The position numbers and the translations under genes are program-made. The notes beneath the pieces are model-generated. The model was given only the letters and a program-made list of their open reading frames with translations, had not been told where the DNA came from and did not search any database. Below, piece after piece: positions 28,382 through 40,544 of a stretch of DNA of 64,000 bases; position 1 is the first letter of the stretch; every line of letters starts with the position of its first letter. The DNA is taken from NCBI RefSeq assembly GCF_013745115.1, contig NZ_CP051151.1, positions 558,001 through 622,000 on the forward strand. Direction: 5' to 3'. This DNA comes from Hujiaoplasma nucleasis. Its GTDB lineage: Bacteria; Bacillota_I; Bacilli_A; Izemoplasmatales; Hujiaoplasmataceae.

Positions 28382-29184
28382 TTAATATTGTATTAAATCT
28401 AAGGCTTGATTCCTAAGTTCCATAGGAGTTAAGCCTTTTAATACTGGTTGATAACGATGGTTATTGTAGAATACTATATATTCTTCAATAGCCATTTTTA
28501 ATTGCTCGATAGATCTGAATTCATTCAGTTTATACATTTCAACTTCCATAACACCCCAAAATGCTTCCATTGGTCCATTATCAATACAACGTCCAACTCT
28601 AGACATGCTTTGTATAAACTTAACGTTATCTAACTTTTTCTTAAATGTTTTATTTGTGTATTGGAATCCTCGATCACTGTGAAACAATATATTTTCACAA
28701 CCAGTATATGTCTTAATCGAATCATCGAATGTTTTAAAGACTAAATCGTTATTATTAGAAGTTCCCATACGATAAGCGATAATACTATTATCATATAGAT
28801 CTAGAATCGCGCTTAGGTAAAGTTTTTAGTTGGACCTATAATCTTATATTCAGTCACATCTGTAAGCCATTTTTCATTAGGTTTCGAAGCTTTGAATTCT
28901 CTATTTAATACATTTTCTCCTACTTGCTCTGGCTTGTAACTCAAGTAATTCTTTCTTTTCCTACGGATTGCTGATGCAACACTTAATTCTCTCATATGTC
29001 TTCTTATACGTTTGATATTATACTTAAGTTCAAAGACACGATTCATGAATAATGTCATTCTTCTGTAGCCTAATATGCCGTTAAATAAGTCATGAAAGTT
29101 TAGAATGGTGTCTTTGATCCATTCATCTTCTTGATTAATATTATTTTTGCGTTTCAGCCATTTGTAATAAGAACTTCGATTCAT
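28382..29184 (-). pseudogene. IS3-type transposase OrfB (rve integrase), frameshifted
   Basis: The first part (28813-29184) has the OrfB start MNRSSYYKWLKRK, a HTH_21-like YRRMTLFMNRVFELKYNIKR and the first catalytic Asp in NEKWLTDVTEYKI. The frame breaks after IIGPTK at a run of five A (about 28822-28826) where six would restore KKLYLSAILDLYDNSIIAYR. The second part (28382-28768) holds the second Asp (FHSDRGFQYTN) and the Glu (CIDNGPMEAFWGVME). The DDE set is therefore complete apart from one missing base. Upstream, the OrfB frame extends to KEQEKIYKAIFELSETYPV before a stop. Confidence 0.8.
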
Positions 29185-29194
29185 TTCATATAAA

Positions 29195-29959
29195 TCACAT
29201 AAACTCTTTACTGGATATGTTTCGCTTAATTCGAAAATCGCTTTGTAGATTTTCTCTTGCTCTTTCTACTATCTCCCGCCTTTCGATTTCTTCCAACTTT
29301 TTTAAAGCTGCGTTCTCCATTTCTAAGTACTTATTACGAGCTTGTTCTTTCTTTAACTGATGTCTTAATTTTTCCTCAACTGTCATTTCAGATTCAGTTT
29401 TCTTTCGTCCTCGTTTATCCGTTAATCCTTCTTCACCATTCTCTTTATACTTTTTTACCCATACATATACTTGGGCGTAATTTACGCCATATTTAACTGC
29501 TGTTTCTTTATAGTTTAACTCGTGCTCTAAACAATATTTTACTATGTCTATTCTTTCTTCATATGTTGTTTTTCTTGACTTTGCCATATAGACCTCCGGT
29601 TTAGGATCGTAATCCTTAGTTTCTATATGACTATTATACTTGTTTAACCAATTTATTAACACTGACTTAGATGAAATTCCATATTTGTTTACGGTCATCT
29701 CCATCGAATCTTCTCCGTTAAGGTAATCACTTATTGCTGCCAACTTTAGTTTTTTACTATATGTTTTGTTCTTATCCGTAGTATTAAATGCACTTTCACC
29801 TAAAGCTTCATACTTGTGTCTCCATTCAAGTATCATTCTCTCGGGATACTTCACACCTATTGAAAACTCTTGTGATAACTTTGTTGCGCTTTCTCCTTCT
29901 ATATATCTTCTTACAATTTCTAACTTTGCTTCCTTACTATATTTCAGTTTTCTTCCCAT
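29195..29959 (-). CDS. IS3-type transposase OrfA (HTH protein)
   Basis: 254 residues, longer than most OrfA proteins because it carries three successive helix-turn-helix units (near residues 1-50, 70-115 and 125-175: KLEIVRRYIEGESATKLSQE, LAAISDYLNGEDSMEMTVNK and IVKYCLEHELNYKETAVKYG), then a coiled coil (LRHQLKKEQARNKYLEMENA). It binds the terminal repeats of the element. TTA AAA AAG at 29297-29305 is a classic A-AAA-AAG slippery site for programmed -1 frameshifting into OrfB. In this copy OrfB lies in the +1 frame, so at least one more base has been lost between them. Confidence 0.85.
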   Translation of the reverse strand: MGRKLKYSKEAKLEIVRRYIEGESATKLSQEFSIGVKYPERMILEWRHKYEALGESAFNTTDKNKTYSKKLKLAAISDYLNGEDSMEMTVNKYGISSKSVLINWLNKYNSHIETKDYDPKPEVYMAKSRKTTYEERIDIVKYCLEHELNYKETAVKYGVNYAQVYVWVKKYKENGEEGLTDKRGRKKTESEMTVEEKLRHQLKKEQARNKYLEMENAALKKLEEIERREIVERARENLQSDFRIKRNISSKEFM

Positions 29960-30085
29960 ATAAAAATACCTCCAAAGTATCTTCCATAATAAATACTCAT
30001 AATCATTTTGATTATTTTCTTTTTTTATAGTGTCTACTTTAGAGGTATCATATCAATGAAATCAGAGTTTGAGGTTTGTTAGGTT

Positions 30086-30782
30086 TTAACTTATATAATT
30101 CCATGGTAATAGACTTTCGATTTCTGTTTCTTGATTAATGGTCATATTAGCTAACTTGGTTAAAGTATCACTTAAATAATTATAAGGATTCACATTATTT
30201 ATTAAACACGTCTGTACAATTGAATATAATCTAGCTGAGGCTTGTGCACCAGATACAGATTGATTGAATAGCCAGTTCTTTCTTCCAATCACAAATGGCT
30301 TAATTGATCTTTCAGCCCGATTATTGTCAATGTCAAGTTCAGCCTTGTCTAAGTAATGCATAAGGTTAGGCATTTGATTCAGTGCATAAGTTACTGCCTT
30401 TCCATACTTAGATTGTGGTAACGCATTGATAGATGCTTGATTAAGCCATGTTGAAAATTCATCAAATATAGGTTTGATCTTTTCTTGTTTAAAAGCATAT
30501 CGTTCTTCAATTTCTAACTTTTTAGATTCTCTATCTAAATCAAATAACTTATTACAATAGGCTAATCCCTTAGCTGTATTTGATTTTTTAGCATCCTCAG
30601 TATTTTCAATGAGTTTATAAGCATCATTGAAATATCTTCTAACATGCGCTAAACAGCCTACTAATGTTACGTTATCTATATGATTATAACCACTATAACC
30701 ATCCACATGTAAATAACCAGAAAAGTCTTTTAAGAACTCTCTTGGTATCTTACCTGATCTAGATGAATGGTAATCATAAATG
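30086..30782 (-). pseudogene. IS66 transposase TnpC, C-terminal fragment
   Basis: About 232 codons remain of a protein normally near 500. Seen: DYHSSRSGKIPREFLKDFSG, HVDGYSGYNHIDNVTLVGC, LAHVRRYFNDAYK, AVTYALNQMPNLMHYL, LDIDNNRAERSIKPFVIGRK and NWLFNQSVSGAQASARLYSI, all signatures of the IS66 DDE transposase and its C-terminal domain, ending LPWNYIS. The N-terminal leucine zipper, zinc-binding and first catalytic parts are missing, so it cannot work. Confidence 0.85.
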
Positions 30783-30784
30783 AC

Positions 30785-31152
30785 AAAGTGCTAGAAATCA
30801 AGCCTTATATAAGTTTAAACAAAAACAAGTCAGGGTCTTAGTAGCAACGGGTGTTGCTTCTAGAGGTATTGATATAGATGAACTATCTTTAGTCATCAAT
30901 TATAATCTACCTGATGTGTCTGAAACCTATATCCATAGAATAGGTCGTACAGGTAGTGCCAATCATAAAGGTCAAACTATATCATATATATGTGAAGAAG
31001 ATTATTTTCTATTAAAAGATATACAAAAACATATTAAAATGGAAATAGCTGTTAATAAAGAACATCCATATGATATAGAATTAAAAGGTATTAAAGCAAT
31101 CATCAATTCAAATAATGCTCAATTGACACAACATAGAAAAAAGAAAAAGTAA
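30785..31152 (+). pseudogene. DEAD-box RNA helicase, C-terminal fragment
   Basis: An open frame reading toward 31152 begins inside helicase domain 2: ARNQALYKFKQKQVRVLVAT (motif IVa/V region), GVASRGIDIDELSLVINYNL (motif V) and SETYIHRIGRTGSANHKGQT (motif VI), ending in a basic tail (QHRKKKK). Motifs Q, I, II (DEAD) and III are missing because the IS66 remnant replaced them. A full-length helicase of this type would act in cold-induced rRNA and mRNA remodelling; this fragment has lost the ATPase core. Confidence 0.85.
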
Positions 31153-31262
31153 AACCATAAGAATACACCAAGAAAATACCATCCAAAAAGTAAAAAGAAT
31201 GCACAATAAAAAATGATACATTAATACTATAGAGAAGTGATATTTTCACGAATAAAAACTAT

Positions 31263-31379: not shown

Positions 31380-31500
31380 GTTGAAGTTGATAATAAAGAT
31401 GTGTTGATCCGTCTGAAATAACTGTCGGTTCGCTGAAACACTTAACCTTGAACATAGTCTTTTCTTGCCGCCCCCAACAGTGTGCACTGTTATTTTTGAT
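31380..31500. repeat. Island repeat copy 1 (most diverged)
   Basis: Core ACTGTCGGTTCGCTGAAAC at 31421-31439 continues as ACTTAACCTTGAAC (to 31453). It is the leftmost of eight copies of the intergenic repeat described in the findings. A hairpin AACAGTG/CACTGTT (31476-31491) followed by ATTTTTGATAC reads out on the plus strand. The remainder of the 31153-31540 interval holds only the helicase terminator. Confidence 0.7.
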
Positions 31501-31540
31501 ACTTTTTCTATGGACTAGATCTATATTAAGATTAACTATA

Positions 31541-32035
31541 TTAATCACTCATAATAAATTCATTTAATTCGTTTTCATCTACTTTAAGCCACTCTATTCT
31601 AAGTAGTCCAGATTCTAGTGCATAGTCAAAATCTCTATAAAATCGTTGCTTAACTACAGGTGTTAATTTTTCATCAACATATCTAAGAACAAGTAGTAGC
31701 GATGATGGAACATTATTTCTTTTGGAAAATAGTATAACCTTGTTTAACATATAATAGAATCTTTCGAAATACATAATGGATATACTTGGATTAGATAAAA
31801 ATAGAACCTCTATAAAATATACTCCATTAATATTTTGTACCATACCATCAAAAACAGGTGATTTACTTGATATAAAATCATTTACGCTAGATTTATCAGA
31901 TAATTTTATGTTATATCGTATAGATGAAGTAGAACCAAAATATTTCAAAGAATTCGTTTCTAAATAATCAAAAGTTCTTTTTTCTAATTCCTCTCTAAAC
32001 TTTCTATGGTCAATTCTTCTGTTAAAACGTTCCAT
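31541..32035 (-). CDS. Uncharacterised protein, possibly PD-(D/E)XK-like (module 1)
   Basis: 164 residues, family not recognised. The core FDGMVQNINGVYFIEVLFLS has the spacing of a PD-(D/E)XK nuclease active site (Asp, a turn, then E-V-x), but the usual Lys two residues after the Glu is Leu, so it may be inactive or a look-alike. The N-terminus is basic and helical (RFNRRIDHRKFREELEKR) and the C-terminus acidic. The ATG directly follows the stop of the upstream membrane protein gene with no gap, so the two form one operon. The operon is enclosed by the island repeats at 31380 and 32640, suggesting transfer as a unit. Confidence 0.6.
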   Translation of the reverse strand: MERFNRRIDHRKFREELEKRTFDYLETNSLKYFGSTSSIRYNIKLSDKSSVNDFISSKSPVFDGMVQNINGVYFIEVLFLSNPSISIMYFERFYYMLNKVILFSKRNNVPSSLLLVLRYVDEKLTPVVKQRFYRDFDYALESGLLRIEWLKVDENELNEFIMSD

Positions 32036-32461
32036 TTATTTATCCTCCTCAAATTCATTATCAGCAATGTCTTCTTCTAGTTGTTCAAAAAATTCATCTT
32101 TCTCTTTAATTTCTTCCTCAGTAGCTGATTCAACTGGATTTTTTGCAACAGAGGGAAAACTAACATTCATCATTTGCAAATTTTGATTATGCAAATTATT
32201 TCTTAAATTAATATTTTCCGCTCTTAGTTCTTTATTTTCATTCATTTTATCTTCTAATGTATTTGAAATTGTAAATAGCTTACCAATTGAAAAATTATTA
32301 AATTTATTACTCAGTGTTAAAGTGACTAAAATTAGGACTAATATCACGTCTTCTGAAGATATCTTATAAGAATTACTACAAAAGTTAATTACAACTAAAC
32401 AAGAGACGCCGATGTAAAGAATAATTAACAATAGATCATATAACCAAGAGTATTTTTTCAT
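32036..32461 (-). CDS. Two-helix membrane protein with cytoplasmic coiled coil (module 1)
   Basis: 141 residues. Two transmembrane helices (about 7-27, YDLLLIILYIGVSCLVVINF, and 37-52, EDVILVLILVTLTLS) are followed by a coiled coil (LEDKMNENKELRAENINLRN NLHN, roughly 68-95) and an acidic tail. Both termini are probably cytoplasmic. It starts a two-gene operon with the protein at 31541, which it could anchor at the membrane. Two-helix plus coiled-coil proteins next to nuclease-like proteins recur in defence modules, but this pairing is not one I recognise. Confidence 0.65.
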   Translation of the reverse strand: MKKYSWLYDLLLIILYIGVSCLVVINFCSNSYKISSEDVILVLILVTLTLSNKFNNFSIGKLFTISNTLEDKMNENKELRAENINLRNNLHNQNLQMMNVSFPSVAKNPVESATEEEIKEKDEFFEQLEEDIADNEFEEDK

Positions 32462-32639
32462 TTTTTTCTCCCTAAATTTTAATATTCACAATTTACTACT
32501 ACGACATTTTTCCAAGAAAATATTATACTCAATACTTAATAAATATGTTTTGCTTTTAATTTAGATTGTAATAGTTTGATCAATATCATTATTACCATAA
32601 GTCTAATAAATCTTTTATTTCACTAAAACACATCACTTT

Positions 32640-33000
32640 GAATATGTTTTTTTTCGAAAATCAAAACATTATTTAATATCTCTATTAAGAGCAAAAGTCA
32701 AGTATTTTTTATCAAAAGTTCCAAACCCCTCAATTCCAAGTCTCAGTCCTGCTTTAACAACTGTCGGTTTCGCTGAAACCCTTCACTTTGAACCTATTTT
32801 TGCGTGTTGATCCTACACTTTGAACTATCATTTTATAGTTTTTTTCTTCAAATTGAAACACCATTTAACAGCATAATAAAGAGCAAAAGTCAAGGTCGTT
32901 TTATCTAAAGTTCAAATTCCCTCGACTCCATGTCGTAGTCCTAGTGAAATGACTGTCGGTTTCAATGAACCCCTTCACTTTGAACACAATGTCTCTTATG
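32640..33000. repeat. Island repeat copies 2 and 3 in tandem
   Basis: Cores at 32761-32794 and 32953-32986. Each is preceded by AAGAGCAAAAGTCAAG and then (A/T)CAAAAGTTCAAAT...CCCTCGACTCCA-like sequence. Copy 2 is followed by AACTAT(CATTTT)ATAGTTTTTTT (32824-32846), a hairpin with a T-tract on the plus strand. The rest of 32462-33250 has no gene I can support. AACTTCAA/TTGAAGTT (33113-33120, 33143-33150) can also pair. Confidence 0.8.
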
Positions 33001-33069
33001 GTCTAAACAAAGACTTTATCGGGTTTCTATAAAAATTATGAAGAATCAATTTTCACCACCGTCATTAAT

Positions 33070-33250: not shown

Positions 33251-35101
33251 TCAATTAGCATCTAAAATGGCATTAAATTTTTCTTTCATCTCATATAATT
33301 TTGGATCCCTCTGTAAGGAAATTTCAAAATGTTTTCCTCTATCCTTTAGATGATTCAATAAGTCTTCCTCGTCTCTTAACAAATCATCTAATTCAAAATA
33401 CCTAGTCACATTCTCCTTTGAAATATTAAATGGCGTTGCTGTAAAATTAAAAATATCATTCCATATAGCACTTATAATTTCTTCTTGTCTCTTTTCCAGG
33501 CCAAACATTCCATTTTTAATATAATTTTTAAGAGTTTTATTTAGAACAATAGAGGAATCACTTTCTAAAATCAATACTTTTTCGTTTATATCTTTATTAG
33601 CTAATTTTTCATTAATCACTTGAGTGGTTAAAGTTAGATTTTTAATGGTTGCATTATCAGTATCACCATCATCGCTTATCAAGTGTTCTATAGTTAAATT
33701 AGTGGAATCAAGACTAGAGTCTTTTTGCTCTTTTTGCAGATAATTCAATAAAACATATTTTACAAGTCTTGAATTTCTTTTTAAACGAGATTCCTTATTA
33801 GAATATCTTAACGATGGATTCATTGGAAAATTTTTCGTAAAATTGTCTTCATCAACATATTCCGAAACCCGTATAAAAAATTGTGTCATATTAAAAAGAT
33901 AATCATTAATACAGTTTGAATAATATATTCTATAAGCAAATTCAGATACTATTTTGTCTATTCTATTACTTGTTTGCTGTGTGACATTAAAGATAAAAAC
34001 AAAATTACGAAGATTTTTTATGGTCTTTTCAAAAACATCATTATCAATAACCCCATCCAATCGCTTTAACTCTATGGATGTTAGAAGAGATCTAATTTGC
34101 TGATTTCTTTTTATATCGAAATACTCTATAACTAATGAGCTGTGTTGTTTTGGACTTATATTCTTATAAGCAGTTGAAAATCTTAATAAATCATCTAAAA
34201 GATTTGATAACTTTTCTAATGGAATTTCATTTTTTATAAGTTTATAAACAGAATTCGAGTTCTCAGCACTCTTTTCAATATAACATTTTGCAAAATGATT
34301 AATCATATCATCGACATTATTTAAATGATTTGAATTTAATATAATGCTATTCCATTTATCTTTTGCTTCATCAATAAACTTGTCATCTCTAGGTTGAATG
34401 TATTTCATTAAATGATTTTTAAGAAGTTCTATTTGTTTTAACTTTTGTCCCCTAGCATTTAACACTTCGAATATATTGTAAATCTCCTCTTCTTGGTTTG
34501 ATACAATCTCAACAATTTTAATATCAAGTAACCTTTCCAAAAATGCATCTAATTTATTTAAATCATAGTTTTTTAACTCTAAGTATAGATAATTAACTAA
34601 GTTATATAATTTATTTGATTTTTTAACTCTATTTATTTCGGTAGTTTTATCAAGTATTTCTTTAATATCTCTATCAAGTTCGTCATTGTCAATCATAATT
34701 ACTTTTTCAGAGTCAGTCGATAATGATGTAATAAAAGTATTATTAATATAGTCAGCCCGTTTCAAAGATTTATCAGTTTGCATTTCCATAAAAAGTGATT
34801 TAATTGTTGCTAGCAATAAATATACAGTGGTAATCCGCTGTTGTCCATCTATTATTTCATAATCATCAATTCCAGATATTTTTTCACTTTGTTTTTTACT
34901 TGTCTCTGTACTTAATACTATTGCTCCTAAAAAATGAGACCATAAGTCGTGTTGGTTGATCATTGTGAATCTAATATCAGATAATAGTTCACTCCAATTA
35001 TTTTTTTGCCAGACATAACTCCTTTGATATCTAGGAATTATATATCTCGACGATCTTTGAAATACCTCTGAAATACTTCTTGTTTCAGTCTTAAAAGACA
35101 T
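33251..35101 (-). CDS. DUF262/DUF1524 (GmrSD-like) protein, putative phage-restriction factor
   Basis: 616 residues from the ATG at 35101, chosen over a GTG three codons earlier because the GGGGTGGGG site fits it. The N-terminal DUF262 domain has IIPRYQRSYVWQKNNWSELL (about 21-40), FLGAIVLS and the nucleotide-binding YEIIDGQQRITTVYLLLATI (about 81-100), plus EVLNARGQKLKQIELLKNHL. The C-terminal part has NLTIEHLISDDGDTDNATIK, resembling DUF1524, whose HNH motif is normally a His-x-x-P type; here only the His is evident. GmrSD-type proteins cleave modified phage DNA using NTP. It follows a 65-residue protein in the same direction and is enclosed by island repeats. Confidence 0.75.
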   Translation of the reverse strand: MSFKTETRSISEVFQRSSRYIIPRYQRSYVWQKNNWSELLSDIRFTMINQHDLWSHFLGAIVLSTETSKKQSEKISGIDDYEIIDGQQRITTVYLLLATIKSLFMEMQTDKSLKRADYINNTFITSLSTDSEKVIMIDNDELDRDIKEILDKTTEINRVKKSNKLYNLVNYLYLELKNYDLNKLDAFLERLLDIKIVEIVSNQEEEIYNIFEVLNARGQKLKQIELLKNHLMKYIQPRDDKFIDEAKDKWNSIILNSNHLNNVDDMINHFAKCYIEKSAENSNSVYKLIKNEIPLEKLSNLLDDLLRFSTAYKNISPKQHSSLVIEYFDIKRNQQIRSLLTSIELKRLDGVIDNDVFEKTIKNLRNFVFIFNVTQQTSNRIDKIVSEFAYRIYYSNCINDYLFNMTQFFIRVSEYVDEDNFTKNFPMNPSLRYSNKESRLKRNSRLVKYVLLNYLQKEQKDSSLDSTNLTIEHLISDDGDTDNATIKNLTLTTQVINEKLANKDINEKVLILESDSSIVLNKTLKNYIKNGMFGLEKRQEEIISAIWNDIFNFTATPFNISKENVTRYFELDDLLRDEEDLLNHLKDRGKHFEISLQRDPKLYEMKEKFNAILDAN

Positions 35102-35167
35102 TTTCCCCACCCCATATTATTATAAGTTTCTCCATTAAATAATGCGAACTACATATTTACAGCATCA

Positions 35168-35439: not shown

Positions 35440-35710
35440 TATGCTATATAGTCGAGAAAAGTAGCAGTCCCATCAGTTTCAATGAAACCTTCACTTTGAA
35501 CAAAATTTTGCGTGTAGACCTTACACTTTAACACACACAACTGTGTGTTTTTTTTAAAACGTTGCAAGCTGAGTTGACGTCTATATGTCAACATTTGCAG
35601 GCAAACTGTTACAGTTTTCATACAGTTTCTCGCATTTATGTCCAGGCCCTGCACTTACAACTGTCGGTTTCGTTGAAACCCTGCACTTTGAACATAGTGA
35701 TAGTTATGTT
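35440..35710. repeat. Island repeat copies 4 and 5
   Basis: Cores at 35471-35501 and 35660-35693 (CTGTCGGTTTCGTTGAAACC). Between them are AACACACA/TGTGTGTT with a T-tract (35530-35555), GTTGACGTCTATATGTCAAC (35573-35592) and AAACTGTTACAGTTT (35603-35617). The rest of 35387-35913 contains no gene I can support; the 71-codon frame across the repeats is judged non-coding. Confidence 0.8.
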
Positions 35711-35913
35711 CTAGACAAGACGTTATCAGTTATTTAGCGAAAAACTATAAGTTTTTCTTTTTACTATTGTTAATATTTACCGATTAACTTGTACTATCGA
35801 GTCTTGATTTTGTTCCTCAAACTCGATATTTTGATTGTTCAAAACCTTTATGTAATCGATAATTATAATCTAAAAATACATTTATTTCATAAAAAGCAAT
35901 TGATCAATACTTA

Positions 35914-36327
35914 TTATAAATAATGAATCATTTCAGTATTATCACTATTAGAAGTTAATTGAAAATTGAGAGATTTCCAAAACCCAATAGAATTTAGTGC
36001 GTTGACCCTAATTATCTTTACACCAATCTTTTTCATTTCAGAAATACATTTATTCATTATTCTTGTCCCATTCATATTTTTTTTATAAATCACTTCAAAG
36101 TGGTCAATCTCTATTAACTGTTTTTCTCTTTCAAGGTAATAAGATATTAGAGCTTCTATAACATTATTTTCGTCTCTAATAATTTCAAATTCATACTCTT
36201 CCCAATCCAGTTTTAGATTTGAAGATAAAAGAAATGCTTCATCTTTTCCTGACAAAGATTCCCAAGAGCTAGATTTTAGGTTTGTTATTTTTGTTAAATC
36301 GATATTTTCATTTATTATGTTTTTCAT
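35914..36327 (-). CDS. GNAT-like acetyltransferase (module 3)
   Basis: 137 residues. The C-terminal half has the GNAT signature layout: LIEIDHFEVIYKKNMNGTRI (beta4 and the CoA loop, here NMNGTRI), MNKCISEMKKIGVKIIRVNA, then LNSIGFWKSLNFQLTSN (the FWxxLGF-like ending). It is small for the family but keeps the core. It would transfer an acetyl group from acetyl-CoA; the substrate is unknown. It is the last gene of the minus-strand module 3, 88 bases after the DUF3307 gene, so it is likely co-transcribed. Whether it belongs to the signalling system or is a hitch-hiker is unclear. Confidence 0.6.
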   Translation of the reverse strand: MKNIINENIDLTKITNLKSSSWESLSGKDEAFLLSSNLKLDWEEYEFEIIRDENNVIEALISYYLEREKQLIEIDHFEVIYKKNMNGTRIMNKCISEMKKIGVKIIRVNALNSIGFWKSLNFQLTSNSDNTEMIHYL

Positions 36328-36415
36328 AGTGTTATCATCCCAAGTGTTTTATACGCTAATATATCATGATAAAATTGTTTCATATCAATTGTTTTTAACA
36401 TTTCTTTTGTAATAA

Positions 36416-37171
36416 TTATAAAAGTTCCATAAAAGTATAATAATACAGTATTCCGATGAACACCATTAACAATGATAAGAGATTTCCGATAATAAAAGCA
36501 TTTCTATTTATTATCTTAGATTCTTCTCGTTTAAAGTCAGAAAAAACTTTTAAACCTAAGACAACTATCAATACTTCATAAACACCAATAATAATTGTTG
36601 GTGTTATTAATAATCGTTCTAGTATTCCTATATACTTTGCTAATTTGAAATTTTCATCATGCACATACTCTTTTAGTATACAGTTCATTGAAAGTTTTAT
36701 AAACTCATGGCCAAAGAATGTCGCTATTAAGACAGCATTAACAATTATAATAATTTGTTGATCAATAGTTGATATATCATCTATAATAAACAACTCTAAT
36801 AAGAGTAAAATACTAAATACATGGACTAGTTGATCATAAATCAATATCCATATATTAAACTTCTCGTTTTTAATGTTTTTTACATATGGAATCTTTGTTT
36901 TAATTTTAACAAAATAAGATTTAAATAAATCAATTAAAAAATGCATTAAAGCGAGTATACCTAACTTCAAAACGTAAACAAACAACAATTCAAAATTACC
37001 TGGATTCACAATAAGCCAAAAAACTGTCAGCATAACAATATAGGAAACATACGTTTTAAGTGCATGAAGAACACTTCCAATAAAAGGTTTATTACTTCTC
37101 GTGGCTACATCATTATCATTTTGAATAATAAAGTCACCAATCAAATGAAACATTAACAATAGATGAAACAT
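36416..37171 (-). CDS. DUF3307 multi-pass membrane protein, putative effector (module 3)
   Basis: 251 residues with about seven hydrophobic segments. The start LLLMFHLIGDFIIQNDNDVA, then GSVLHALKTYVSYIVMLTVF, LIDLFKSYFVKI and IYDQLVHVFSILLLLELFII match DUF3307, a membrane family with conserved His/Asp residues in its helices (the HxxxDFxxQ and HxxxD patterns). DUF3307 genes are often found near SatD-type or other signalling genes; the biochemical role is not known. Here it follows two nucleotide cyclase homologues with 3 bases between it and the nearer one, so it is a candidate membrane effector or receptor of a cyclic-nucleotide signal. The last about 60 residues are a cytoplasmic segment and a final helix. 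Confidence 0.7.
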   Translation of the reverse strand: MFHLLLMFHLIGDFIIQNDNDVATRSNKPFIGSVLHALKTYVSYIVMLTVFWLIVNPGNFELLFVYVLKLGILALMHFLIDLFKSYFVKIKTKIPYVKNIKNEKFNIWILIYDQLVHVFSILLLLELFIIDDISTIDQQIIIIVNAVLIATFFGHEFIKLSMNCILKEYVHDENFKLAKYIGILERLLITPTIIIGVYEVLIVVLGLKVFSDFKREESKIINRNAFIIGNLLSLLMVFIGILYYYTFMELL

Positions 37172-37174
37172 TTT

Positions 37175-37756
37175 TTATCTCCTTTTTAATGATTTTATTC
37201 TATAAGCACTAATACCAGATTTTTCCTTACACTTATAAAGCTCTTCGAAACCCTCTTTTGAAAGCAGGTTATTTATTGTTTTTGTAGTAAGTATACCATC
37301 AAAAATAAACTCTTTGTGTTCTAGGGATGTCCGATTATGATAATATGCATACTTTGTTGCAGTATTAATGGATTGTCCGATTAAAAATTCTGATTTATGG
37401 ATATTTGATTCTAACTTAATTATTTTAACCGGTGATTTTTGCATTCCAATGCCGTATCCCAATTTTAAATTTGGATACGCTAAAGCTAAATTTTTGATAT
37501 ATGAAATAACTTCTGTAATTAATTTATTTAGTATTTTATAAGACTTTAAGAATTTTTCTGTTTCATAAATTAAAATATATCCATCACCTGTCGATTTAGA
37601 AAAAACAACACTTCCTTTATTATCATGGATTAAATTATTAAACTCTAATATAATTTTTTCTGCTAATCTCACATCATTATCATCATTTATTAAATTTGAA
37701 GAATTCCTCATATCAATAACAACTGTTATAGCATTATTAATAATTAATGACTCCAT
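37175..37756 (-). CDS. Class III nucleotidyl cyclase-like protein B (module 3)
   Basis: 193 residues, a minimal cyclase catalytic domain without sensor parts. Both metal-binding aspartates are present: Asp15 in ITVVIDMRNSSNL and Asp58 in SKSTGDGYILIYE. GYGIGMQ (100-106) corresponds to the beta4 strand and IGQSINTATKY (126-136) to the transition-state segment, keeping Asn131 with Lys135 at the Arg position. Class III enzymes work as dimers with active sites at the interface. It lies only 31 bases after the related cyclase A gene and 3 bases before DUF3307. Product nucleotide (cAMP, cUMP, cCMP) cannot be read from the sequence. SatD-type proteins, which are also linked to DUF3307, are an alternative family label. 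Confidence 0.65.
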   Translation of the reverse strand: MESLIINNAITVVIDMRNSSNLINDDNDVRLAEKIILEFNNLIHDNKGSVVFSKSTGDGYILIYETEKFLKSYKILNKLITEVISYIKNLALAYPNLKLGYGIGMQKSPVKIIKLESNIHKSEFLIGQSINTATKYAYYHNRTSLEHKEFIFDGILTTKTINNLLSKEGFEELYKCKEKSGISAYRIKSLKRR

Positions 37757-37787
37757 AAAATACCCCTATCTTTTTCTAAGCATAAAA

Positions 37788-38513
37788 CTAAATATTACTA
37801 TCTATCCAATTATTCATTTCAGTTTTAATTGAATTACTCGTGAAATAATCTTGATAAGGATGTTTTTTCAATAATTCTTCATTATTACTAAACTCTTTAA
37901 TATTAATATATGAAGTGTTACTTATTGCAATACTTGAAGATGTTGTCTCATTTCCATAATTTTTACAAGTTACTTTTGACAGATAATCTGCTTTCGCCAA
38001 GGCTTCACCTATCCAGACTTTTTCATTGATTCCACTACCTTTTTTCCCAGCTTTAATGATCAAATCTTCAGATGTAGCCATCCCGATACCAGCCCTTACA
38101 GGATTAAGGCTTTTCTTCTTAAGTAGTTTATTTAGCATTTTTATATATGTGTTTAGCCAAACACAAAGATTAAAAAGTTCATTTTCTGTTTGTTTATTTG
38201 GTGAACTGAAAACACCATAAACACAATCTCCTCTAACGCCTATTTCTCTCACTAAAGTCGATGATTTCATTATTTCAATTATTTCTGATGAATAAGCTCT
38301 GATTGTTCTTGCTACATCTTCTTTTTTTGTTTTTGCAAAAAATTCTGTAGATCCTCTTAAGTCAACAAAAATTGCTGTAACCCAACTTTTAATCCCGTTA
38401 TCGTAAGTCCATCTACTTTCATCTTTAGGAATACTATCTACATTCTCAACAGATGTGCTAATATCAAGAATGCTTTCTACTCTTTGTTTTCCTTTTTCAT
38501 AATCATAACCCAT
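37788..38513 (-). CDS. Class III nucleotidyl cyclase A, Pycsar-like (module 3)
   Basis: 241 residues. AIFVDLRGSTEFFAKTKKED carries metal Asp51, and VRGDCVYGVFSSP carries metal Asp96. VRAGIGMATSEDLIIKAGKK with GSGINEKVWIGEALAKADYL strongly resembles the clade of uridylate/cytidylate cyclases of Pycsar phage defence (PycC), which have an IKAGxKGSGIN block and a WxGDVVNxAA-like helix. At the position of the transition-state Asn there is Ala173, and at the Arg/Lys position Tyr177, so this subunit may need a partner. The neighbouring cyclase B keeps the Asn. Possible system: phage signal, cyclic nucleotide made at the A/B interface, effector activation. Confidence 0.75.
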   Translation of the reverse strand: MGYDYEKGKQRVESILDISTSVENVDSIPKDESRWTYDNGIKSWVTAIFVDLRGSTEFFAKTKKEDVARTIRAYSSEIIEIMKSSTLVREIGVRGDCVYGVFSSPNKQTENELFNLCVWLNTYIKMLNKLLKKKSLNPVRAGIGMATSEDLIIKAGKKGSGINEKVWIGEALAKADYLSKVTCKNYGNETTSSSIAISNTSYINIKEFSNNEELLKKHPYQDYFTSNSIKTEMNNWIDSNI

Positions 38514-38557
38514 TTACTCATCCACTCCTTGAAAAATATCTCTTTAAAAAAATCCCT

Positions 38558-39868
38558 TTATGAAGTACCTATTAGTGATATTCTATATAGTTTATCCATT
38601 TGATAACTGACTTCAAATAACTCGTTTAATGCATTAAATAATTTTATAGTTGCGCTACAAAATTCTAGATAATCCATCTCAATTTCACTTACTCTTCCAC
38701 GATGAGAATCTTTAAAAATAATAGTGTTTTTATCAATGTTAAAGTCTCGATCGAAATGTCCTTCTGCATTTCTTATTTTGTTCGAAATCAATCCCGTGTA
38801 AGGTAAACTAAATGTATCAAAAACGCACAATAAACTAGATAATTTCATATATTTCGAATTAAAAGAGTTAATTACGTTATCAAACCCAACCTTTGCTGAA
38901 GACACACAAAATAAATTACAATTTCCTCTTACAGTTATGTTGTTTAAACCTATAATCAAATCAATTTTGTCGCAAAACAGTTCATATGCTTTAGCATAAA
39001 AAGCAGTTAGCAATGCTACATGTTTTGTAGTAACTGTATATTTACCACTAGTAATGTCGGTTTTCAGTTCATCCATCGAGTTTAAGAGTGGGATAAAATC
39101 CGGTAAAATTTCCATGTACTGCAAAGTTATTTCATGCATTCTTTTTTCAAAGTCAATATAATACTTCTTATCTCCTAGTAACTTTGATAAGTTAACAATC
39201 TTCTGGTGTTCAGAAGAATTAATTATTTTATTAAACGTAGTTGGGTAGTCGAGAATTCTATTTCTTCTATTTTTCTCAATAAATGGTGATAGTAAAAAAA
39301 CTCTCGACTGGTGAACAACCATTAACATTTCTAGTTCATTGGTAATCTTAAAGGCTTTTGGTTTTTTCCAAGTATCAATCATTAACCTAGTTAGTGACAT
39401 CTCGTTTAATTTTATAATTAATGTTCTAAATTTCTCACTGTTCCATAGATTTGAAATTATCGTATATTCATTTTTATATTTAAATAATCTAATTAAAGCG
39501 TTTTTCAACCTGATTAAATTATCAATTCCTTGTTTCCCATATGAAGCAAATGATCTGATAAACGGAGTTGGTTGAAAATAATCATCATCCTTAACAACTT
39601 TTTGTTGTAAAAATTCTGATGATAACTCTACTACAAAATCAGCTAAATCATTCGTAGAATTAAATACCTCTGCATTATTAACTAAAAATTCAATGCCAAG
39701 ATTTTTCATTTCAGGTTTAGGTTCACTAGGTATTGTTACCAGCCCAGTGATTTGCGTATGACAATTTGGACAATTAAAATTGATAGTAATATTCGAGAAG
39801 CCAATTTGAGTTCGCAATCTAAAACTAGTGTTACATACTGAACATTTAATATAATTATTACTTACCAT
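38558..39868 (-). CDS. Zinc-ribbon HEPN-type protein (module 3)
   Basis: 436 residues, first gene of module 3. An N-terminal zinc ribbon has Cys9 and Cys12 (IKCSVCNTSF) and Cys33 and Cys36 (FNCPNCHTQ). The middle is almost all helical. Near the C-terminus NKIRNAEGHFDRDF contains R366-N-A-E-G-H371, the R-x4-H motif of HEPN ribonucleases, followed by a helix SEIEMDYLEFCSATIKLFNA as in HEPN domains of abortive-infection proteins. It could therefore be a toxin RNase controlled by the cyclases downstream, or a sensor; both are inferences. It is 44 bases upstream of the cyclase A gene and behind island repeats. Confidence 0.65.
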   Translation of the reverse strand: MVSNNYIKCSVCNTSFRLRTQIGFSNITINFNCPNCHTQITGLVTIPSEPKPEMKNLGIEFLVNNAEVFNSTNDLADFVVELSSEFLQQKVVKDDDYFQPTPFIRSFASYGKQGIDNLIRLKNALIRLFKYKNEYTIISNLWNSEKFRTLIIKLNEMSLTRLMIDTWKKPKAFKITNELEMLMVVHQSRVFLLSPFIEKNRRNRILDYPTTFNKIINSSEHQKIVNLSKLLGDKKYYIDFEKRMHEITLQYMEILPDFIPLLNSMDELKTDITSGKYTVTTKHVALLTAFYAKAYELFCDKIDLIIGLNNITVRGNCNLFCVSSAKVGFDNVINSFNSKYMKLSSLLCVFDTFSLPYTGLISNKIRNAEGHFDRDFNIDKNTIIFKDSHRGRVSEIEMDYLEFCSATIKLFNALNELFEVSYQMDKLYRISLIGTS

Positions 39869-39984: not shown

Positions 39985-40535
39985 AAAACACAAAAGTGTT
40001 GTTTTTTTAGAGCGTGTTGAATGTGGACTTTTCATCTAAACTAAGATCATAACTGTGTGTCAAAATCCGAAGTTTAAATCCCCTCAAATACGTTGTCGCA
40101 GGCCTAGTGAAACAACTGTCGGTTTCGCTGAAACCCTTCACTTTGAACCTAATTTTGCGAGTTGACCCTACACTATGGACTGTCATTTTATAGTTTTTTT
40201 TCAACAAACTAAAACATCGCTTAACATCTCAACTAAGAGCAAAAGTCAAGTTATTTTTATCAAAAGTTTAAATCCCCTCGACTCCATGCCTTAGTCCTAG
40301 TGAAATGACTGTCGGTTTCTATGAACCCCTTCACTTTGAACATAATTTTACGTGTGACCCTATACTTTAACACACACAATTTTTTGTTTTTTGAAAAACA
40401 TTGCAAGGTGAGTTGACGTCTATATGTCGACATTTGCGGCAAAATGTTACAGTTTTCATACAGTTATGTGCCCGGTTGTCGCAGTCCTTCTGAAACAACT
40501 GCCGATTCTATGAAACCCTTTACTTCAAACACACT
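39985..40535. repeat. Island repeat copies 6, 7 and 8
   Basis: Cores at 40115-40148, 40308-40341 and 40498-40530. Hairpins with T-tracts on the plus strand lie at 39987-40008 (AACAC/GTGTT) and 40179-40200 (ACTGT/ATAGT); a decayed one lies at 40371-40396. GTTGACGTCTATATGTCGAC (40412-40431) and AATGTTACAGTTT match the second type of block also present at 35573-35617. The two short frames across these repeats (60 and 66 codons) look non-coding. Confidence 0.8.
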
Positions 40536-40544
40536 ATTTTAAAT

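Follow-up and report, generated by a model that had tools for sequence, protein, structure and literature searches.

A repeat-bounded pair of orphan genes in Hujiaoplasma nucleasis as a candidate membrane-tethered phage-defence module

We describe two adjoining genes of Hujiaoplasma nucleasis, encoding a membrane protein of 141 residues and a soluble orphan protein of 164 residues, which together are best read as an exchangeable cassette of a repeat-bounded, mainly-defence hotspot. The window analyzed is a stretch of 64,000 nucleotides (contig NZ_CP051151.1, positions 558,001 to 622,000). The pair lies in it among known defence modules that have repeat boundaries in common, and the same slot holds an AriAB-like gene in the sister species G001, the one relative compared. 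As the pair occupies a slot of exchangeable anti-virus modules between repeats, it is probably an undescribed defence pair. The fuller reading, in which the two proteins form a membrane-tethered pair that serves in phage defence, has in our judgement about an even chance of being correct; the defensive role and the tethering are both features that we infer.

The repeat core CTGTCGGTTTCNNTGAAACCCTTCACTTTGAAC flanks the pair on both sides and recurs across the island. Repeat A (31408-31507, plus strand) forms one boundary of the pair, and repeat B (32632-33020, plus strand), which consists of two units with cores at 32760 and 32952, forms the other; the sequence-only reading had already put the pair between island repeats, and these are the copies in question. 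Repeat C (two units, 35473-35727, plus strand) and repeat D (three units, 40070-40541, plus strand) lie further along, and 277 bases of repeat D are 84% identical to repeat B. Five matches to the 20-base core are present in the window as compared with 0.00 expected in shuffled sequences. When repeat block B was searched against the whole genome by BLAST, it was found in at least eight places, all within 589-635 kb (40 of the 62 first-look candidates were scored). With up to three mismatches allowed, the core occurs at seven sites in the genome, all within the same 589-635 kb, and in three of the 89 other genomes of the order, while a reversed control pattern had sites in none of 90. More diverged copies were identified by local BLAST. 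Further copies in the same genome lie at L204 7782-7823, 11120-11175 and 14672-14850, and copies elsewhere lie in G001 (L216 7989-8091 and 10091-10697) as well as at L217 8719-8757 and L218 270-305. Some copies carry the short inverted repeat GGTTTC...GAAACC. Folded as RNA, all four repeats tested performed no better than shuffled sequences (z 0.00 to 0.80).

The interval that contains the pair measures 1.1 kb. Each of the four other short repeat-bounded intervals (2.4-4.4 kb) holds defence or toxin-antitoxin families. The earlier view of a linked two-gene module, here within a repeat-bounded, defence-rich island, is well supported. An interval of 2.5 kb contains a GmrSD-type (HEC-06/Orf5) protein encoded at 33251-35110 on the minus strand (Pfam GmrSD_N 3.4e-33; PADLOC Orf5 3.4e-47 and HEC-06 1e-45). 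The next, of 4.3 kb, holds a Pycsar-type stretch of five ORFs (35914-39868, minus strand) with a cyclase at 37788-38513 (PycC 5.9e-81). A further interval, of 3.3 kb, carries AbiE genes with a RelB-type antitoxin. In the other, of 3.5 kb, HipA is accompanied by an HTH gene and by an ORF that has no match in Pfam; what separates these two intervals is a weak copy of the repeat (E 0.001-0.002). An Mrr gene follows after the last repeat. The fifth interval, of 29 kb from repeat D to L204 7782-7823, contains mostly other cargo and was not counted as a module. In the part of it that was scanned, which leaves aside about 18 kb of ORFs after the polysaccharide-export gene, we found this gene, a reverse transcriptase resembling that of type VI retrons and two serine recombinases. 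Thus, the repeats bound more than defence genes.

The Pycsar-type stretch itself is unusual, and no obvious effector is seen among its five ORFs. Besides the cyclase it comprises a second, weakly cyclase-like ORF of 193 residues (PycC 2.8e-8), a DUF3307 ORF (4e-9), an ORF of 436 residues that matched nothing in Pfam or PADLOC, and one of 137 residues that matched nothing in Pfam. The genes for the two large serine recombinases, of 566 and 544 residues, overlap slightly and lie just beyond the window (L204 1297-4618); the reverse transcriptase (L204 4667-5653) matches the PADLOC type VI RT model at 3.8e-68.

For the comparison of the slot between species, a DEAD-box helicase gene of which the C-terminal part remains (30763-31197, plus strand) served as a marker. 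The remnant is 74% identical to codons 272-415 of the G001 gene, with three stops in the matched stretch. In G001 (one contig), the intact helicase gene and an ORF of 197 residues lie upstream, and only one ORF of at least 80 residues lies between the repeats at L216 7989-8091 and 10091-10697. It encodes an AAA-DUF4435 protein which matches the PADLOC AriAB model at 4.5e-70 (PARIS-like). Downstream of the slot, surface-polysaccharide genes are found in both species, recognised in G001 by eye and in H. nucleasis by a single Pfam match, and two of the G001 downstream ORFs have matches in this region, at 30-35%. The content of the slot therefore differs between H. nucleasis and this one relative. 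Transposase remnants of the rve/HTH_21 and IS66 types lie beside the helicase gene, here reduced to its last third, at 28382-31197.

Both genes of the pair are on the minus strand, the first (141 residues) at 32036-32461 and the second (164 residues) at 31541-32035. The two genes are in one frame, the TAA of the first abutting the ATG of the second with zero gap, and a Shine-Dalgarno sequence, GAGGAGG, lies within the first gene at 32044-32050, eight bases before the start of the second. This layout of the junction (32033-32050, minus strand) makes translational coupling of the two genes likely. Codon statistics were trained on 16 long ORFs of the window, and the called frame was compared with the other two frames of the minus strand. 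The per-codon coding log-likelihood is 0.179 for the first gene and 0.120 for the second in the called frame and negative in the others. The description of an abutting two-gene module thus stands: the ORFs are exactly contiguous, the second has a strong ribosome site, and both carry a coding signal. No further ORF of at least 90 residues is present between the flanking repeats. The number of promoter-like sites (8) did not exceed that expected from shuffled sequences (10.4).

The 141-residue protein has a clear N-terminal membrane helix at residues 8-28 (best 19-residue hydropathy 2.7) and a borderline second helix at residues 34-52 (hydropathy 1.62). A polar stretch containing leucines (residues 56-102) and an acidic tail with a net charge of -12 (residues 103-141) follow. 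If the second helix is real, both termini are probably cytoplasmic. The protein had been described as two helices plus a coiled coil. Of this, the first helix is borne out and the second is borderline, whereas the heptad pattern of the polar stretch is not above chance, as 795 of 5000 shuffled sequences were equally good. No Pfam or NCBIfam family matched above its cut-off, nor did any PADLOC model. Below threshold, residues 60-105 resemble YabA (E 0.039 in Pfam and 0.026 in NCBIfam); other weak matches were to EBV-NA3 (E 0.078) and to two PHROGs (E 0.13 and 0.82).

The 164-residue protein is without a membrane helix by hydropathy and nearly neutral in charge (24 K+R, 23 D+E). The stretch VFDGMVQNINGVYFIEVLF, in which a nuclease-like core had been seen, is present at residues 61-79. 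Within it, D63...E76-V-L78 resembles the PD-(D/E)XK core, D-(X)n-(D/E)-X-K; D63 and E76 are in place, and the position of the catalytic Lys is taken by Leu78. Searches at E<=1 gave no family in Pfam, NCBIfam or PADLOC, and no PDB sequence matched at E<=10. One PHROG of unknown function matched weakly (E 0.0052, residues 66-100). Single-sequence AF2 models had a mean pLDDT of 46 (entire protein) and 50 (residues 18-158), and Foldseek with these two low-confidence models gave best E values of 2.8 and 1.6, with no match at E<=0.001.

Furthermore, the protein was compared with Mrr-type nucleases, which it resembles by eye in the order of elements around the D...E. After 149 genomes of the class had been searched with PF04471, 35 domains from the resulting loci were made into an Mrr_cat profile, which was aligned with the protein by hhalign. 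The score of 10.9 is lower than both the top decoy score (18.1, among 150 frames) and the highest score among 60 shuffled sequences (18.5), the decoys being open frames rather than proven genes and the comparison being with their top scores. All 35 members, each scored with its own locus left out, reached 49.1-182.9; this control is generous, because the members were recruited by the same profile. Membership of the 164-residue protein in Mrr_cat is therefore excluded. A phage protein taken by eye for a PD-(D/E)XK nuclease scored 10.2, and the test thus covers Mrr_cat alone, not the wider superfamily. With no family, PDB or Mrr match and Leu at the catalytic Lys position, the nuclease label, which the sequence-only reading had attached to this protein, drops to a possibility.

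Relatives of both proteins were searched at E<=0.001 in 90 genomes of the order. The 141-residue protein was found in its own genome alone, and the 164-residue protein in its own genome and in G046, where the frame is broken by four stops. In a set of 61 genomes this broken frame was likewise the only match to the 164-residue protein besides its own genome, and one of 395 genomes of the class sample and one of 392 of the phylum sample had a match at the same threshold. Plasmids, phages and viral contigs contained no relatives of the 141-residue protein. For the 164-residue protein, viral contigs, genome contigs, plasmids and phages gave no credible match; in plasmids and phages the tblastn search extended to E 10, with one phage match at E 5. 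A looser search of the class returned 44 matches outside its own genome. Fourteen loci with weak matches were inspected (five from the order search and 12 of the 44 from the class search, three being in both); by eye these were unrelated genes, e.g. for a UPP synthase or a nucleotidyltransferase, or the match was not reproduced by local tblastn. At the sensitivity of single-sequence searches the pair is an orphan, and distant relatives could have been missed. The earlier remark that no known defence pair has such a composition agrees with our result that neither protein matched a known family or a model of a defence protein. Likewise, no such gene pair was found in those parts of the literature that were available, in which SNIPE and CoCoNuTs came nearest.

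The motif was also scanned for directly. Without the Lys, no stretch was found in viral contigs; with the Lys required, there were eight, one of them nuclease-like by eye (L053). The scan of genome contigs, in at least 120 loci, gave 35 motif-bearing frames (26 in 80 loci and 9 in the other 40), none of which adjoins a clear membrane coiled-coil gene by eye. A single one of the 35 was judged nuclease-like by eye. This frame (L156 3199-4383) encodes a Helicobacteraceae protein of 394 residues with the Lys-less motif FDGII...YFIEMT, has the look of a degenerate nuclease by eye, and is without a Pfam match above cut-off. BLASTP aligned it with the 164-residue protein over 19 residues at E 0.068, a value obtained after selection for the motif.

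If the pair is a defence module, the 141-residue protein would be the membrane anchor, its polar stretch and acidic tail would lie on the cytoplasmic side, and the 164-residue protein would dock there, the acidic tail contacting the partner. Most likely the two would then resemble a SNIPE divided between two proteins and act at the membrane, either on incoming phage DNA or in response to it; one chain would combine anchor and regulator, and the other would bind nucleic acid or be a degenerate, nuclease-like part. Taken alone, a direct attack on the phage DNA seems unlikely to us. We put forward only tentatively, and consider somewhat improbable, that the pair represents a new two-protein, membrane-tethered defence family, spread as a repeat-bounded cassette, whose acidic-tailed anchor would keep a nuclease-like protein with a degenerate catalytic site at the place of DNA entry. 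The reading as a defence module draws on the operon layout, on the repeats with the modules that they bound in this genome and its relatives, and on the membrane helix and acidic tail. Against it, neither protein yielded a relative, no catalytic family was recognised, the coiled coil is not above chance, and the 29-kb interval, the weak repeat copy between the AbiE and HipA intervals and the comparison of the slot in a single relative limit the argument from context.

RmuC combines a membrane helix, a coiled coil and a PD-(D/E)XK-type domain, and the order of parts is similar if the abutting, in-frame genes are read as a split protein. The pair differs from it in consisting of two chains without a Pfam RmuC match, and its second part is shorter than that of RmuC. 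SNIPE (PD-lambda-1) is a membrane-bound nuclease, which cleaves the DNA of phages while it is being injected, and 7% of its homologues have two membrane helices (PMC13190303). The likeness lies in a membrane anchor near the N-terminus, a cytoplasmic working part and a role in defence, features that in the pair are predicted or inferred; SNIPE, however, is one chain with DUF4041 and GIY-YIG, whereas the pair consists of two chains with no recognised nuclease. Pfam detected neither DUF4041 nor GIY-YIG in either protein. Among the systems considered, SNIPE is the nearest working analogue of the pair, though its defining domains are absent.

Three other explanations have to be weighed against a membrane-tethered defence module. 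The main rival is that the pair could act by abortive infection, the soluble 164-residue protein being a sensor that triggers oligomers of the small membrane protein, which then damage the membrane. RexAB is such a combination of a soluble sensor and a small membrane effector, and in general terms the two-gene logic would be alike. A small membrane protein with a soluble partner in a defence hotspot is consistent with this, and Leu at the Lys position would fit a sensor that only binds, but a pore should need no long acidic cytoplasmic tail and no effector family was matched; we regard abortive infection as rather unlikely. Alternatively, one protein may restrain the other in the manner of a toxin-antitoxin system, or the pair may be passive accessory cargo of the island, and would in neither case be anti-phage in itself. 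In favour of this, the hotspot also carries AbiE, HipA and RelB and one interval of other cargo, and one partner has an acidic tail; yet no toxin or antitoxin family was matched and the 164-residue protein is nearly neutral, which leaves this explanation improbable.

The remaining alternative is a true PD-(D/E)XK nuclease whose catalytic residue is displaced and which its partner tethers to the membrane. In the low-confidence model, a predicted hairpin contains D63 and E76, and helices and a strand come after it, an order of elements that looks right by eye, and the similar Lys-less motif of L156 lies in a protein that is nuclease-like by eye, albeit without a Pfam match and at a BLASTP E of 0.068. 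The replacement of Lys by Leu, the lack of family and Mrr matches and the uninformative AF2 and Foldseek results speak against it, and the motif alone is weak, as the yield of one nuclease-like frame in 35 from 120 loci illustrates. We consider a true nuclease unlikely as well.

Should the pair protect against phage, it would add a family overlooked by profile-based defence finders, which miss it because neither protein matched a model above cut-off. The repeat family of the genus would then be a pointer to undescribed defence cassettes, and any unknown gene enclosed by two closely spaced repeat copies would be a candidate. Within one order, four genomes have such repeats around or beside genes of defence or toxin-antitoxin systems. 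In G037, which belongs to another family, and in G004 the repeat core adjoins AbiE genes that are 91-95% identical to those of H. nucleasis. AbiE and RelB-type genes at L204 8684-10859 and L217 5700-7857, each near a repeat core, are 82-95% identical between genomes of different families, which suggests recent transfer.
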